Positions 14,767 to 64,000 of a stretch of DNA of 64,000 bases are shown in pieces. Position numbers and translations under genes: made by a program. The number at the start of each line of letters is the position of its first letter. Position 1 is the stretch's first letter. Origin of the DNA: Halofilum ochraceum (GTDB taxonomy: Bacteria; Pseudomonadota; Gammaproteobacteria; XJ16; Halofilaceae); contig NZ_LVEG02000012.1 of NCBI RefSeq assembly GCF_001614315.2, positions 1-64,000 on the forward strand, in the 5' to 3' direction. The notes under the pieces are model-generated. The model had not been told where the DNA came from. It saw only the letters and a program-made list of their open reading frames with translations, and did not search any database.

Positions 14767-14815
14767 CCGCTTCTGCACGTTCTCGACGGGCCGCTCGTTT
14801 CGGATGGTGTCCGGG

Positions 14816-15087
14816 GTTCTCGCCAAGGCGCGAAGGGCGCCAAGGGACGCGAAGAAGAAGAAAAAGGAGGGAGAATGGTCTGCGCTGAGTCAGCGTGCGA
14901 GTAACATCGCCGATCCCCGTGACCGCCTGCGATTGCCGACATTGTCCGGCGCGTACCGCTTACGCGTATCGGGCCCTGTCGGATTTCCGCCAAAGCCAAC
15001 CTGCATAAAAAACGCGCACGGGATCATTCCGAACGAGCCTTTGATTTCCTTTGCGTCCCCTGGCGCCCTTCGCGCCTTGGCGAGAAC
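14816..15087. repeat. Inverted-repeat pair of the CCAAGGCG arm family in a 369-base gene-free gap
   Basis: The gap 14767-15135 between znuB and the acyltransferase gene holds no supported gene. A 34-base arm at 14816-14849 (begins GTTCTCGCCAAGGCGCGAAG) is repeated inverted at 15054-15087 with one mismatch. The left arm is followed by an A/G-rich run (GAAGAAGAAGAAAAAGGAGG). The arms resemble those at 5650/5864 and 51478/51651. Confidence 0.82.
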
Positions 15088-15135
15088 CGCGGACAGCGCC
15101 CGAAAGAAGCACCACGCAGGAATGTCGGTAAAGCG

Positions 15136-48532: not shown

Positions 48533-49165
48533 TCACGCGGTCTTGTCGGGGTATTCGCAGAGATCGTGAATCCGGCAGTCACCGCAGCGGGGTTTACGGG
48601 CGGTACAGACATAGCGCCCGTGCAGGATCAGCCAGTGATGGGCGTGGCGCAGGTAGGCCTTGGGCATCACCTTCACCAGTTGATCCTCGACCGCGCGCAC
48701 ATTCTTGCCGGGTGCGAAGCCCGTGCGGTTGGCGACGCGGAATATGTGCGTATCCACGGCGATCGTCGGTTCGCCGAAGGCGGTATTCAGGATCACGTTC
48801 GCGGTCTTTCGCCCGACGCCCGGTAACGCCTCCAGCGCCGCGCGGTCGCGCGGTACCTCGCCGCCATGATGCTCGACGAGCATGCGGCAGGTCTCGACGA
48901 CATTCTTCGCCTTGTTGTTGAACAGGCCCAGCGTGCGGATATGTTCCTTTACTCCCTCGACGCCGAGCGCGAGCATCGATTCCGCGTCCGGCGCGGCCGG
49001 GAACAGGCGGGCCGTCGCGGCGTTCACGCCCCGGTCCGTCGACTGGGCGGAGAGGATGACGGCGATCAGCAGCTGGAACGGCGTCTCGAAATGCAGCTCC
49101 GTGGTCGGTTCCGGGTCGCGCTCCGCCAGCCGGGCCATGATCTGTTCGCGCCTGGCGCGGTTCAT
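48533..49165 (-). CDS. nth: Endonuclease III
   Basis: The 210-residue base-excision glycosylase/AP lyase removes oxidised pyrimidines. The helix-hairpin-helix and catalytic lysine are in [17 protein letters not shown], the catalytic aspartate in [14 protein letters not shown], and the [4Fe-4S] cysteines at the end in the C-x6-C-x2-C-x5-C pattern ([11 protein letters not shown] through C of HDLCEYP). ATG 49165 overlaps the rnfB-like stop by four bases. Confidence 0.97.
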
Positions 49166-49851
49166 CGCTGATCCGTGGTGCGCCGACGTTTCGCGCGGGC
49201 GCGCTCGACGGCTGCCGCGACCTCCGCGCGCCGGCTCTCGCGATCCCCGTCGGGCCGCTTCGCCGCCCGCGCCGCCTCGCGCTCACGCCGCCGCCGTTCG
49301 AGGCGTTCATTGCGCGCGTGGTACCGGGCGCGGAAGTATTCCGCGCGCTCGCGCAACGGGGTCGGGTCCGGGGACGGCTCGAGCGAGATGCAGTCGACCG
49401 GGCAGGGCGGGATGCACAGTTCGCAGCCGGTGCACTCCGACGCGATCACGGTGTGCATCTGTTGCGAGGCCCCGAGGATGGCGTCAACGGGGCAGGCCTG
49501 GATGCACTTGGTGCAGCCGATACAAACCGACTCGTCGATGAAGGCGACCACGGGTTGCTCCACGGGTTCACCACACTCGGGATCCATGGGCTTGCTCGTG
49601 GAACCCAGCAGCGCCGCCAGCGCATCGATTCCCTCACTGCCGCCCGGCGGACAGCGGTTGATATCCGCTTCCCCCGCGGCGATCGCCTCGGCGTAGGGCC
49701 GGCAGCCGTCATAGCCGCACTGCGTGCACTGCGTCTGCGGCAGCAGTGCATCGATGCGGTCGGTCAGGGTCTGGTCGTTTCCGCGGTCGGTCAGGGTCTG
49801 GTCGTTTCCGCGGTTCACGGTTTGCGTGTGGTCATCATGCATGGTGTGCAT
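49162..49851 (-). CDS. Solo RnfB/RsxB-like ferredoxin protein
   Basis: The 229-residue protein has the RnfB Fe-S domain [20 protein letters not shown] with its further cysteine in INRCPPGG, then two [4Fe-4S] ferredoxin motifs ([12 protein letters not shown] and [12 protein letters not shown]) and a highly basic, arginine-rich tail. Unlike RnfB of the complete complex it lacks an N-terminal membrane helix, and no rnfACDGE genes adjoin. The N terminus contains a direct repeat [21 protein letters not shown] 49851 is taken; ATG 49842 is close. The electron partner is unknown. Confidence 0.88.
49761..49814 (-). repeat. 27-base tandem duplication inside the rnfB-like gene
   Basis: Two exact 27-base copies (49761-49787 and 49788-49814) encode GNDQTLTDR twice in frame, just before the first cysteine motif. 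Perfect identity suggests a recent duplication. Confidence 0.92.
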
Positions 49852-49911: not shown

Positions 49912-50733
49912 GTGTGGGTCGGGTTTCGCCCGCTGTCGCGGGCGAGTGACTTTCTTTTGCACGAAAAGAAAGTCACCAAAGAAAGCGTGCCCTGGTTGGC
50001 GCGCCCCGCCGCCCTCGGCGGGGATTCTTTGCGGCGATACGGACATGATCGGGTCGTGCCCGTCGGTTCCCGCGACCAGTTGCTGGCGGCCGAGGGCGAC
50101 GAGGTGCCCTGTGCTTCTCGCGAGCGCCGGGGCGCGCAGACGGCACGTCCGTGTGCCGACTGCGCGGACTCGCCGTCCTGGCGAGTCCCGCTTCGCGGCC
50201 TGATCCGGCGCTCGCTGCGATGCTCGGCGCTCCAAACGGGCGAACCGTTTGCCGATCGGTGCATGGACTTCGTGATCCGCAAAGTGGGTGAGCGATGCTG
50301 TGCCTGCACTGGATCGCCGCGCTCGCTCGCGATGACGGATGCCCTCGCTGCGCGGCCCAGGCGCTGCGACAGCGCTGTACGAAGTCCCGAGTTGGTTCGG
50401 CTACGGGGTTTAATCCCGTCTGGCTCGCCGAGCATCGCAGGGGCGAGTGGATCAGGCCCGAAGGGGAGCCGGCAGGAAGCCGGCTCCGCGCAGTCGGCAC
50501 ACGGACGTGCCGTCTGCGCGCCCCACTCGACCCGAGAAGCACAGGGGAGCCTGCCCGGGTCCCGACTGCGTGCACTGCTGGTGGTTCCCTTCTGCCCGCA
50601 GGCGAACGCGATCGCGGTGATCACTCTTGACCCGGGCAGGCCGAGCCGGTCAGGGCGTGCTTTCTTTGGTTCCTTTCTTTTCACGCAAAAGAAAGGAACT
50701 CGCCCGCGACAGCGGGCGAAACCCACCCACATC
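49912..50733. repeat. Large nested inverted-repeat element (about 820 bases) in a 927-base gene-free gap
   Basis: The gap 49852-50778 carries no credible gene. Outer arms at 49912-49993 and about 50648-50733 pair through GGGTTTCGCCCGCTGTCGCG, and each also contains its own hairpin (CTTTCTTTT...AAAAGAAAG). Inner arms at about 50103-50220 and 50430-50555 include a perfect 40-base inverted match (50129-50168 with 50485-50524) that itself holds CGGCAC...GTGCCG. Long overlapping frames on both strands are a by-product of this symmetry. Confidence 0.88.
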
Positions 50734-50778: not shown

Positions 50779-51429
50779 TCAGAACAAACCAAACAGAAAC
50801 CCGACCCCCATCAACCCAAGAATCCCCGCCGAGATCAGCGTCAGCCCCCGTTCGGCATGCTCGAGCCGGTGCGCGAACCGCCGCAGCCCGGCGACCAGCA
50901 GCAGGGTCAGGGCGACCAGTGCGGTGATCACGGCGAGCGCATACGACAGCATCAGCTCGAGGCACAGCGCCGAGCCGGTGCACAGCGCGATGATCTGGAA
51001 TTCCTCTTCGTGGGCGAATCCGAGCGTGAACGCGAACACCGCTAGCGGCCAGAGCCCGGCCGTGGGGGCGGGGCCGTCACCGTGGTCATGCTGATGGCCG
51101 TGATGATGATGGTGGTGATGTCCTCCGCGCAGCGCGGCGCGCAACTGCCAGGCGGCCAGCGCGAGCAGCAGCCCACCGGCGATCCAGTCCATCCAGCCGC
51201 TGGCGCCGAGGTCAAAATATTCCTTGATGCCGAAGTACAGCAGCACGACGGCAATGCTGCTCACCAGATGACCGATCCCGATCACCACCGCGGCGATCAC
51301 GCCGGCGCCCCACCGGCCCCGCCGCGCCGAGGCCCACGCCGCCGCCACCGGCCAGCCATGCCCCGGCTCCATGCCGTGCAACAAGCCCAGTCCGATGGCC
51401 CCGAGGAACAGTCCGATCACACCTTCCAT
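50779..51429 (-). CDS. NicO/UreH-like nickel/cobalt transporter family membrane protein with His-rich loop
   Basis: The 216-residue protein has six hydrophobic segments. The N-terminal GLLHGMEPGHGWPVAAAW matches the HxxxPGH-type metal motif of NicO/RcnA-like carriers, and TLGFAHEEEFQIIAL forms the second conserved histidine/acid site. A cytoplasmic or periplasmic loop carries seven histidines in a row followed by GHQHDHGDG, suited to Ni, Co or Zn. Direction of transport is unknown. ATG 51429 (MEGVIGLFLG) is preferred to an upstream extension that crosses a repeat. Confidence 0.8.
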   Translation of the reverse strand: MEGVIGLFLGAIGLGLLHGMEPGHGWPVAAAWASARRGRWGAGVIAAVVIGIGHLVSSIAVVLLYFGIKEYFDLGASGWMDWIAGGLLLALAAWQLRAALRGGHHHHHHHGHQHDHGDGPAPTAGLWPLAVFAFTLGFAHEEEFQIIALCTGSALCLELMLSYALAVITALVALTLLLVAGLRRFAHRLEHAERGLTLISAGILGLMGVGFLFGLF

Positions 51430-51477
51430 GCCGGAAAATCCGTTTGCTGATGGTTGGGAGGGTCTGAAAAAAGCGGT

Positions 51478-51677
51478 TCTCGCCAAGACGCCAAGCGCGC
51501 CAAGAAAAGCATGTTTGGAACGAACATAGTCCCCGATGCCCCGGGTGATGCGGAATATGAGGGTTCAGGCAGCGTTGAACCACACCTGATCCCGGTCATT
51601 TGGGCGGGGCCGCAAGGTATTGGATGGTCGTGTTTTTTTTCGGTTTACCACTTGGCGCGCTTGGCGTCTTGGCGAGA
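51478..51677. repeat. Inverted-repeat pair with CCAAGACGCCAAG arms in a 301-base gap
   Basis: An arm at 51478-51504 (TCTCGCCAAGACGCCAAGCG...) is repeated exactly over 27 bases, inverted, at 51651-51677. The gap 51430-51730 between the NicO-like and metG genes holds nothing else recognisable except a T-rich tract (GTGTTTTTTTTCGG) next to the right arm, which with the stem could act as a terminator. Confidence 0.83.
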
Positions 51678-59108: not shown

Positions 59109-59420
59109 GAACCACGAATGAACACGAATGGACACGAATGCTGCCGCAGGGCGTATCGAGCCCGGAGGAGCTGCGCTGTCAGGTGGGAGCCAACCGGATG
59201 GAGAGCAAAGAACCACAGATGAAAATCAAAGGCGATAGAGCGTAGGCCAAGACCGCGTGCCCCTGCCCCGCCGCCCTTTTCTTTGACCTTATCTGTGTTT
59301 ATCTGTGTCCATCTGTGGTTCTCCACGGATTTTCAGGGCCACTACGCTCTCAGCGAAGCTCCTCCAGGGTCGATACGCCAAGCGGCAGCATTCGTGTCCA
59401 TTCGTGTTCATTCGTGGTTC
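59109..59420. repeat. CACGAATG/CACAGAT inverted-repeat element, copy 1
   Basis: The gap 59107-59432 holds one imperfect palindrome. The left end GAACCACGAATGAACACGAA is matched by the right end TTCGTGTTCATTCGTGGTTC. Inside, GCTGCCGCAGGGCGTATCGA pairs with the TCGATACGCCAAGCGGCAGC region, and an inner CACAGAT/ATCTGTG block surrounds the centre. It lies between the 3' ends of ptsP and the hemJ-like gene. A second copy is at 62851-63160. Confidence 0.9.
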
Positions 59421-62827: not shown

Positions 62828-62850
62828 GTTTCGGGCGTCGGAAAAGGCGG

Positions 62851-63160
62851 GAACCACGAATGAACACGAATGCTGCCGCAGGGCCTATCAGGCCGGCGGG
62901 AGCTTCGCTGTCAGGTCGTACCAGCGGGATGGGGGAGAAGAACCACGGATGAACACAGATAAACACAGATAAAGTCAAAGAAAACGGCCGTTTGGAAGAT
63001 CTAGCGGTCGAGGTACGCAACGGGGCGCCTTTGACTTTCATCTGTGTTTATCCGTGGTTCTTCCCTCGGTTTCAGAACCACCACGCCCTCAGCGAAGCTC
63101 CCCCAGGGTCGATACGCCCTGCGGCAGCATTCGTGTCCATTCGTGTTCATTCGTGGTTCC
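62851..63160. repeat. CACGAATG/CACAGAT inverted-repeat element, copy 2
   Basis: The left end GAACCACGAATGAACACGAA and right end TTCGTGTTCATTCGTGGTTC are the same as in copy 1 at 59109-59420. Pairing continues through GCTGCCGCAGGGCCTATCAG and the AACCACGGATGAACACAGAT block against ATCTGTGTTTATCCGTGGTT. It occupies the rest of the 392-base gap (62775-63166) between the 3' ends of erpA and anmK; its right end is seven bases from the anmK stop. Confidence 0.9.
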
Positions 63161-63166
63161 AGCCTT

Positions 63167-64000
63167 TTAGCCGCCCCGCGGAGCGCGGATGAGGCTGCCG
63201 AGGATGAGTTCGCGGCTGGCGCCGGTGACGCTGGGGCAGTTGCCGGGGCGTTCCTCTATGCGCTGGTGGGCCAGCCAGGCGAAGGCCATGGGTTCGACGT
63301 GGTTCGGGGCGATCCCGTATTCGGACGTGGTCTCGACCGGCGGGCCGTCCAGCCACCGGCGGAGACGGGCCAGCAGGTCGCGGTTGTAGGCGCCGCCGCC
63401 GCAGACCAGGACCCGGTCCACCGTCCCGGCCTGGCGGATGCCCTCGGCCACCGTGCGCGCGGTCAGTTCGGCCAGGGTCGCCTGCACGTCCCGGGGAGGC
63501 GGCTGGGAAGACATTGCCCGGAGGTGCTCGTCGAGCCAGTCGGCATGGAAGAGTTCGCGCCCGGTGCTTTTCGGCGGCGGGCGCTGGAACCACGGGTCCG
63601 CGCTCATGCGCTCCAGCAGATCCGTGTCCACGCGACCGCCGGCGGCCCAGGCGCCGTCGGCGTCGAAGCGCTCGCCCGACTGCCGCCCGATCCACGCGTC
63701 CAACAGGACGTTCGCCGGCCCGGTATCGAACCCGAGGACCGGCTCGCCAGGGCACAGCCGCGTGATATTGGCGATCCCGCCGAGATTGACCACGGCACGG
63801 CGTTCATCCGTGCGGGCAAACACGTGCTCGTGGAATGCCGGCGCGAGGGGGGCGCCTTCGCCGCCCGCGGCGATGTCGGCGCGGCGGAAATCGGCGACCG
63901 TGTCGATCCCCGTCAGCACGGCGATTCGATGCGGATCGCCGAGCTGGATCGTCGTGGGCGCGGGGCCCCGTGGGCGGTGGAGCACCGTCTGCCCATGTGA
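63167..64000 (-). CDS. anmK: Anhydro-N-acetylmuramic acid kinase, N-terminally cut by the window edge
   Basis: The frame is open to the last base of the window; the first visible residues read SHGQT, the conserved HGQT motif inside AnmK, so roughly the first quarter to third of the protein lies outside. Other family parts are DTVADFRRADIAAGGEGAPL, VNLGGIANIT, LGFDTGPANVLLD and VCGGGAYN with the nucleotide-binding glycines. AnmK opens and phosphorylates anhydroMurNAc to MurNAc-6-phosphate in wall recycling. Confidence 0.95.
   Translation of the reverse strand, partial: SHGQTVLHRPRGPAPTTIQLGDPHRIAVLTGIDTVADFRRADIAAGGEGAPLAPAFHEHVFARTDERRAVVNLGGIANITRLCPGEPVLGFDTGPANVLLDAWIGRQSGERFDADGAWAAGGRVDTDLLERMSADPWFQRPPPKSTGRELFHADWLDEHLRAMSSQPPPRDVQATLAELTARTVAEGIRQAGTVDRVLVCGGGAYNRDLLARLRRWLDGPPVETTSEYGIAPNHVEPMAFAWLAHQRIEERPGNCPSVTGASRELILGSLIRAPRGG

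Follow-up and report, generated by a model that had tools for sequence, protein, structure and literature searches.

A dispersed palindromic repeat of Halofilum ochraceum with predicted triple-helix pseudoknots at its ends, and its relatives among bacteria

Background

Dispersed palindromic repeats are usually treated as DNA hairpins of the REP type, and the closest described classes, REP/BIME sequences and MITEs, are non-coding, intergenic, multi-copy units built from inverted repeats. The element described here, which was found in a window of 64,000 nucleotides (positions 1 to 64,000 of contig NZ_LVEG02000012.1) from Halofilum ochraceum, shares those properties and, as is typical of a MITE, is multi-copy, lacks coding capacity and ends in inverted repeats. 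It is, however, far longer than these units, has a covarying pseudoknot, and has been matched with neither a transposase nor a target duplication, and what can be read from its sequence alone is a precisely conserved pseudoknot, predicted to be three-stranded. In REP and BIME units a hairpin of 20-40 nt bears a GTAG or CGTC tag at its foot; the outward strand of this element instead reads GG-TNAC there, followed by TTTC (alignment A3).

The same stacked stems, with a U-rich first loop that enters the major groove of the second stem and runs along it as a parallel Hoogsteen strand, are found in the pseudoknots of telomerase RNA and of the SAM-II, SAM-V and guanidine-III riboswitches. Those pseudoknots are single-copy or gene-linked, whereas the one predicted here stands at the end of a dispersed repeat, and it further differs from them in its second stem of 9-13 bp and its C.G-C triples; nor do its copies occupy the fixed position 5' of functionally related genes that characterizes a riboswitch. 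Triple helices are also found in transposable-element RNA, in the form of the ENEs of plant and fungal transposons, which are thought to guard against decay. The ENEs, which are eukaryotic or viral, are U-rich internal loops that clamp a poly(A) tail, and are not pseudoknots; the present element has no such loop clamping a 3' A-rich tail, and the first loop (L1) of its pseudoknot would itself be the third strand.

One fragment of the repeat family has been catalogued as a small RNA. A Caballeronia copy is matched by Rfam family RF02421 (Bp1_684) at each of its two outer edges, on the outward strands (49.5 and 38.0 bits, with a gathering score of 44); the model starts within the long stem's 3' strand and covers the outer G+C hairpin and the flank. 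The corresponding candidate, Bp1_Cand684_SIPHT, was positive by RT-PCR in a Burkholderia strain and, like the element, is scattered beside unrelated genes (PMC3521395). It comprises the outer edge only, and the accessible part of that report describes it as a trans-acting sRNA and recognizes no pseudoknot, palindrome or repeat family. The repeat family described here suggests that at least one catalogued sRNA is the edge of a repeat. Because the reverse transcription step was oligo(dT)-primed, this result, obtained in a genus other than that of the present host (PMC3521395), is only a hint that the element is transcribed. In the window itself RF02421 gave no match, and no Rfam family reached its gathering score on the element; a match to Ysr224 (25.7 bits, gathering score 70) was set aside as a chance match to a G+C hairpin. 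Apart from the Burkholderia sRNA fragment, nothing on this repeat family was found in Rfam or in the literature searched. The proposal of an earlier note on this DNA, that the composite element is undescribed, agrees with searches by sequence string and by keyword, in a literature from which subscription papers are mostly absent.

The palindrome beside rsxB

That note, written from the letters of the window, had described an 820-base nested palindrome with hairpins inside hairpins; its arms and sub-hairpins were confirmed, while its middle (approximately 50241-50414) proved not to be palindromic (Table 1). Self-comparison of the window delineates outer arms of 90 nt (84%), inner arms of 83 nt (83%) and a third pair of 44 nt (77%; 50197-50240 and 50415-50458). 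Each outer arm harbors a perfect 13-bp hairpin (49946-49976 and 50669-50699), and the 40-base block that had been described as perfectly conserved between the inner arms is indeed an exact inverted match over 40 nt, with a 32-nt hairpin inside it. When folded as RNA, the element reaches a minimum free energy of -584 kcal/mol, compared with -390 +/- 8 in shuffles (z = -23.9), and its self-inverted BLAST score is 208 bits, the next-best 820-bp tile of the window scoring 127. The unrelated dispersed repeat in the centre occurs again at G000:C4:489164-489219. Open frames cross the palindrome, but no product is shared between its copies, and a coding function was rejected.

Table 1. Coordinates of the element, its parts and its flanking genes in the window
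Feature	Position	Strand	Basis or comment
Whole palindromic element	49912..50733		arms, copies and flanking genes; outer borders uncertain by ~15 bp
Left outer arm	49921..50010		arm comparison
Right outer arm	50635..50724		arm comparison
Left inner arm	50107..50189		arm comparison
Right inner arm	50464..50546		arm comparison
Left 40-nt block, with 32-nt hairpin	50129..50168		inverted match (reverse complement) of 50485-50524
Right copy of 40-nt block	50485..50524		
Non-palindromic centre	50241..50414		unrelated dispersed repeat at 50292-50338
Left triple-helix pseudoknot (predicted)	49946..49990	-	mirror arrangement; 68.3 bits with covariance model R1, built partly from both window copies
Left pseudoknot parts	short stem 49986-49990 with 49959-49963; L1 49977-49985; long stem 49964-49976 with 49946-49958	-	
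Right triple-helix pseudoknot (predicted)	50655..50699	+	covariation in family; 69.2 bits with R1, built partly from both window copies
Right pseudoknot parts	short stem 50655-50659 with 50682-50686; L1 (third strand) 50660-50668; long stem 50669-50681 with 50687-50699	+	
G+C hairpin just outside left pseudoknot	49928..49943	-	terminator-like with CTTTCTTTT tract, read inward on +
G+C hairpin just outside right pseudoknot	50702..50717	+	terminator-like, read inward on -
Family motif GAGCATCGCAG	50430..50440	+	left-arm counterpart 50215-50225, -
Family motif GAGAAGCACAGG	50534..50545	+	left-arm counterpart 50108-50119, -
Family motif GGATCAGG	50449..50456	+	left-arm counterpart 50199-50206, -
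rsxB, flanking element	49162-49839	-	
Nickel/cobalt-efflux-like membrane protein gene, flanking element	50779-51486	-	weak family match

Copies in the host genome and its congeners

The earlier note had left copy number to a search of the host's own genome, and that search found the element five times, in three palindromic and two one-armed copies with 8 pseudoknot motifs in total; the refuting condition of a single copy, which that note had named, fails. The other full palindromes are located at C1:719.1-719.8 kb and C8:210.0-210.7 kb, and the one-armed copies at C11:74.0 kb and C4:244.1 kb. The 28-nt core of the 32-nt hairpin displays no mismatch at any of the five places where it occurs in the host genome, a one-armed copy included, and 2 mismatches in congener G001; because that core is identical at all five, the perfect identity of the 40-nt block is not special to the window palindrome. 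Recent gene conversion, which had been offered as one cause of the perfect block, was dismissed, since the block is the same in all copies, one-armed included, and since the arms within one element (approximately 72-80% alike) are less similar than the same arm compared between copies (approximately 75-90%).

The element is absent at the rsxB site in both of the congeners examined, one of which has three matches to covariance model R1 elsewhere in its genome and the other none. The neighbouring transporter-like gene is also missing from the same site in both, so that neither congener provides a clean empty site; that gene and the element may have arrived jointly. The rsxB gene itself contains, near its start, a perfect in-frame 27-bp tandem duplication (49756-49809, giving the protein repeat NDQTLTDRG) that is absent in both congeners.

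The terminal pseudoknot and its predicted third strand

On the outward strand, which is the plus strand for the right arm and the minus strand for the left, each end carries the motif 5'-[a]-CUUUCUUUG-[GUNACUUUCUUUU]-[a']-[AAAAGAAAGUNAC]-3', in which loop a' is complementary to a; the predicted fold is an H-type pseudoknot of two crossing, covarying stems, the shape of which is kept while its letters change. Within the window element the short stems of the two ends, GCGUG/CACGC and GCACG/CGUGC, differ by compensated changes. Across 49 distinct loop/flank combinations, the longest match between the loop and the downstream sequence averaged 3.55, compared with 2.62 in re-paired controls (maximum 3.06 in 2000). 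In a 23-sequence alignment, 4/4 tested pairs of the short stem were changed on both sides, and the whole structure accumulated 45 double-change cells, compared with 19 +/- 3 after shuffling and reached by 0/500 shuffles, figures that are not probabilities and that come from counts mixing related and distant copies. Sliding the pairing partner abolished the covariation signal.

The 9-nt pyrimidine loop L1 is a mirror of the long stem's pyrimidine strand, and is neither a direct nor an inverted copy of it; because of this relation, which does not arise by simple duplication or inversion, L1 suits the part of a parallel Hoogsteen third strand. Being symmetric, the common form UUUCUUU/AAAGAAA is blind to parallel as opposed to antiparallel placement, so that it is the asymmetric variants that are informative. 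The parallel match is kept in UCUCUUU/AGAGAAA (three gammaproteobacterial genomes and Uhrbacteria), UCUUUUU/AGAAAAA (Selenomonadaceae), UUCUUUU/AAGAAAA (several gammaproteobacterial genomes) and UUUUCUU/AAAAGAA (Thermodesulfovibrionia), and matching of the third strand that covaries with the stem is thus found, through asymmetric variants, in at least four lineages; the exceptions are a Cupriavidus L1 that has lost 1 nt and two Saprospiraceae copies with mutations (loci L132 and L147). Each end of the element is accordingly a predicted triple helix similar to those of telomerase RNA and SAM-II, in which a loop of 9 nt would have little steric room to span a stem of 13 bp; DNA triplexes, too, can arise from mirror repeats. 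Many natural variants of this predicted triple helix are thereby supplied for structural work.

The strand that would form this structure was assigned from wobble pairs, with G.U exceeding A.C by 33 to 1 at the most variable pair of the long stem and by 41 to 15 in the short stem. The assignment to the outward strand is of moderate strength, because by lineage (from a reading of the locus list) approximately 13 have G.U and approximately 6 have A.C, and on its own it cannot distinguish RNA from single-stranded DNA.

The inner stem

Relatives of the element in Gamma-, Beta- and Deltaproteobacteria, Nitrospirae-type bacteria and Uhrbacteria possess, 40-85 nt upstream of the pseudoknot, a stem in which a conserved UGUCUGAG lies opposite CGAGUU. 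This motif pair is present in 37/169 halves and in 2/169 of shuffled sequence, and the helices that flank it reach -10.6 kcal/mol, compared with -5.8 +/- 0.6 with swapped partners, in a test set that includes some Saprospiraceae entries that look like false matches. In several relatives (loci L047, L185 and L213) GAGnAnCGCAG is found on both sides of the inner stem. The window copy is without the UGUCUGAG module, the place of which is taken by the 32-nt hairpin of the 40-nt block, and it retains the bordering motifs and GGATCAGG in both arms.

Distribution among bacteria

The outer arm had been noted to resemble repeats of other gammaproteobacterial genomes, and the motif is indeed found there (in 64/274 genomes and 57/221 genera with covariance model R1), its range being far wider than that class. 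An exact pattern scan of approximately 85,000 genomes for the hairpin plus CCAAAGAAAG identified 118 stretches, distributed among Polaromonas, Cupriavidus, Methylotenera, Thiobacillus, Saprospiraceae and other Bacteroidetes, Spirochaetes, Nitrospirae/Thermodesulfovibrionia, Deltaproteobacteria, Clostridia, Negativicutes, Lentisphaeria and Candidatus Uhrbacteria. On its own the end motif extends to approximately ten groups at phylum level, and reaches a maximum of 78 copies in a single genome; R1 counts 78 in a Lentisphaeria genome, 75 in Cupriavidus basilensis KF708, 57 in a Ruminococcaceae genome and 25 in a 1.3-Mb Uhrbacteria genome. Several Cupriavidus contigs (L241-L244) end inside a copy of the element, for which reason the copy numbers of draft genomes are underestimates. 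A pseudoknot with a covarying third strand, spread across phyla and abundant in some genomes, is unusual among interspersed palindromic repeats.

Motifs that lie close together in opposite orientation face inward, mostly 500-650 bp apart, and complete head-to-head palindromes occur in Cupriavidus, Polaromonas and Thiobacillus (Betaproteobacteria) and in Candidatus Uhrbacteria. In gamma proteobacterium HTCC5015 (L101) the unit is arranged not as a palindrome but in head-to-tail tandem, with 98% identity and a spacing of 373 bp. The outer ends of the Cupriavidus copies (L226-L245) carry 50-100 bp of degenerate hexamer arrays (AAAGTC/AACTTC/AAAGGC), and one Polaromonas copy (L246, left flank) has (TTTTAGG)3 at its end.

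No copy was found with the exact pattern among 2.9 million viral contigs, and no phage match was convincing, the sole short match coming from a record without annotation; carriage by phage or by conjugation was rejected on these findings. Plasmid copies are present only on large replicons typed 'non-mobilizable', mainly in Caballeronia.

Mobility and neighbouring genes

The earlier suggestion of a non-autonomous mobile element or a structured RNA is partly supported, by multiple copies, absence from the site in two congeners, the lack of shared coding and strong structural covariation; the target-site duplication that might have accompanied mobility was not seen in the flanks of Caballeronia, Cupriavidus or Polaromonas copies, the ends of which are not exactly defined. 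No autonomous relative with the same ends was found, the sole gene between paired ends being an inserted IS transposase in Polaromonas glacialis. In that species an IS element, whose transposase resembles those of IS1595/ISXO2, lies directly after AAAGAAAG of the pseudoknot motif in four copies (L113 3890-5540; L070, L106 and L126), and seems to target this repeat.

By a crude ORF call, the genes around the copies display no orientation bias over the four possible arrangements (6/5/4/3 for palindromic and 19/16/14/12 for single copies), and no adjacent protein recurs beyond common housekeeping-type families and an IS transposase; the absence of both an orientation preference and a recurrent neighbour favours dispersal over a function as a riboswitch or within an operon. 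The search for a partner or mobilizing protein found none. A link with reverse transcriptase was rejected, RVT_1 being present in 25/64 motif-positive and 78/210 motif-negative genomes (p = 0.77) and absent from the host genome, as was an attC/integron site, since the orientation of the GTTAC/GTAAC pair does not fit.

Interpretation and alternative explanations

Comparison establishes both stems, the third-strand match, the inner stem of the relatives, the multiplicity of the element and its absence from the site in two congeners. The explanation that we favour, and that we judge to be somewhat probable on balance, is that the element represents one copy of an interspersed repeat that is non-coding and non-autonomous, that has a structured end of outward-strand RNA (or single-stranded DNA), and that is moved in trans. 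Its unit would be a half-element of approximately 150-350 nt, read outward from the centre and composed of an inner stem (in many relatives with the internal loop UGUCUGAG/CGAGUU, bordered by GAGnAnCGCAG), a linker and the terminal H-type pseudoknot, and two such halves placed head to head would create the palindrome. Within the pseudoknot, a short stem of 4-7 bp, unconstrained in sequence, would stack on the long CUUUCUUUU/AAAAGAAAG stem of 9-13 bp, in whose major groove the loop C-UUUCUUU-G (9 nt) would run as a parallel Hoogsteen third strand. The outward strand would act as RNA (or single-stranded DNA), and by analogy with known triple-helix RNAs the triple helix may serve as an end signal that withstands exonucleases, that is recognized by a trans-acting copying machinery, or both. 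Two testable questions follow, namely whether the RNA ends of bacterial repeats are protected in the way that those of eukaryotic transposons are, and which agent does the copying when no transposase is linked to the element.

Several of these observations could also be produced if a Y1 (RAYT/IS200-type) transposase copied, in single-stranded DNA form, a BIME-like composite of hairpins, with the hairpin as its DNA recognition site and no role for RNA. Head-to-head pairing of units resembles the organization of BIMEs, the terminal variants of the left and right ends assort independently (as observed in Caballeronia sp. NK8), no target-site duplication is seen, the host genome contains two Y1_Tnp genes, and Y1_Tnp is enriched in motif-bearing gammaproteobacteria (51/64 versus 123/210 of motif-negative genomes; Fisher p = 0.002). 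That enrichment is nevertheless modest and may reflect genome size, 13/64 motif-bearing genomes have no detectable Y1_Tnp, the REP tag is missing from the hairpin foot, and a third-strand match together with a conserved internal loop would be unusual for a REP, all of which leads us to consider this explanation unlikely. We regard as quite unlikely a purely structural DNA element, in which slippage during replication, template switching and gene conversion would passively disseminate mirror repeats (H-DNA) and palindromes (cruciforms): the pyrimidine mirror repeat that an intramolecular DNA triplex needs is indeed formed by L1 together with the long stem, and the arrays and tracts at Cupriavidus and Polaromonas ends, as well as derivatives with internal, end-to-end deletions, are compatible with it, but it requires neither a freely covarying short stem nor the wobble strand asymmetry and the covarying stem of the internal loop, and an active process is suggested by the defined ends and by motif numbers of up to 78 in one genome.

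When either end is read inward, a G+C hairpin comes first and a T-rich tract after it, as expected of a bidirectional transcription terminator or an mRNA 3'-end stabilizer, and the region contains 6 terminator-like sites where 0.9 are expected, with a G+C hairpin outside the motif in many relatives as well; the T tracts are interrupted, however, convergent genes are not in excess around the copies, and the covariation of short stem and third strand is left unexplained, so that a function of this type appears decidedly unlikely. Very unlikely, in our estimate, is a selfish, bacterial SINE-like RNA, in which the outward half-element RNA, with a telomerase-like triple-helix pseudoknot at its end, would be the mobile intermediate, copied into DNA in trans and made palindromic by snap-back copying, and would persist chromosomally across approximately ten phyla without carriage by phage or plasmid. 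A ligand-binding, riboswitch-like cis-regulatory RNA would account for the kind of pseudoknot, which SAM-II, SAM-V and guanidine-III also use, and is disfavoured by context to the point of being extremely improbable, given tens of copies per genome that lie beside unrelated genes in every orientation and that are paired in palindromes.

Other repeats in the window

Three further long palindromes are present in the window, at 59109-59420, 62842-63168 and 14793-15110, with arms that are complementary at 93%, 88-97% and 83%, respectively; covariance model R1 detects no pseudoknot motif in any of them, and the arms of those at 59109-59420 and 62842-63168 contain short degenerate tandem units (CACGAATGAACACGAATG... 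and CAGATGAA/TTATCTGTG...). A second, unrelated repeat family, of inverted pairs of the CTCGCCAAGACGCCAAGCGCGCCAAG type, is found at 51469-51512 and at approximately 51650, and recurs at dozens of further places in congener G001.
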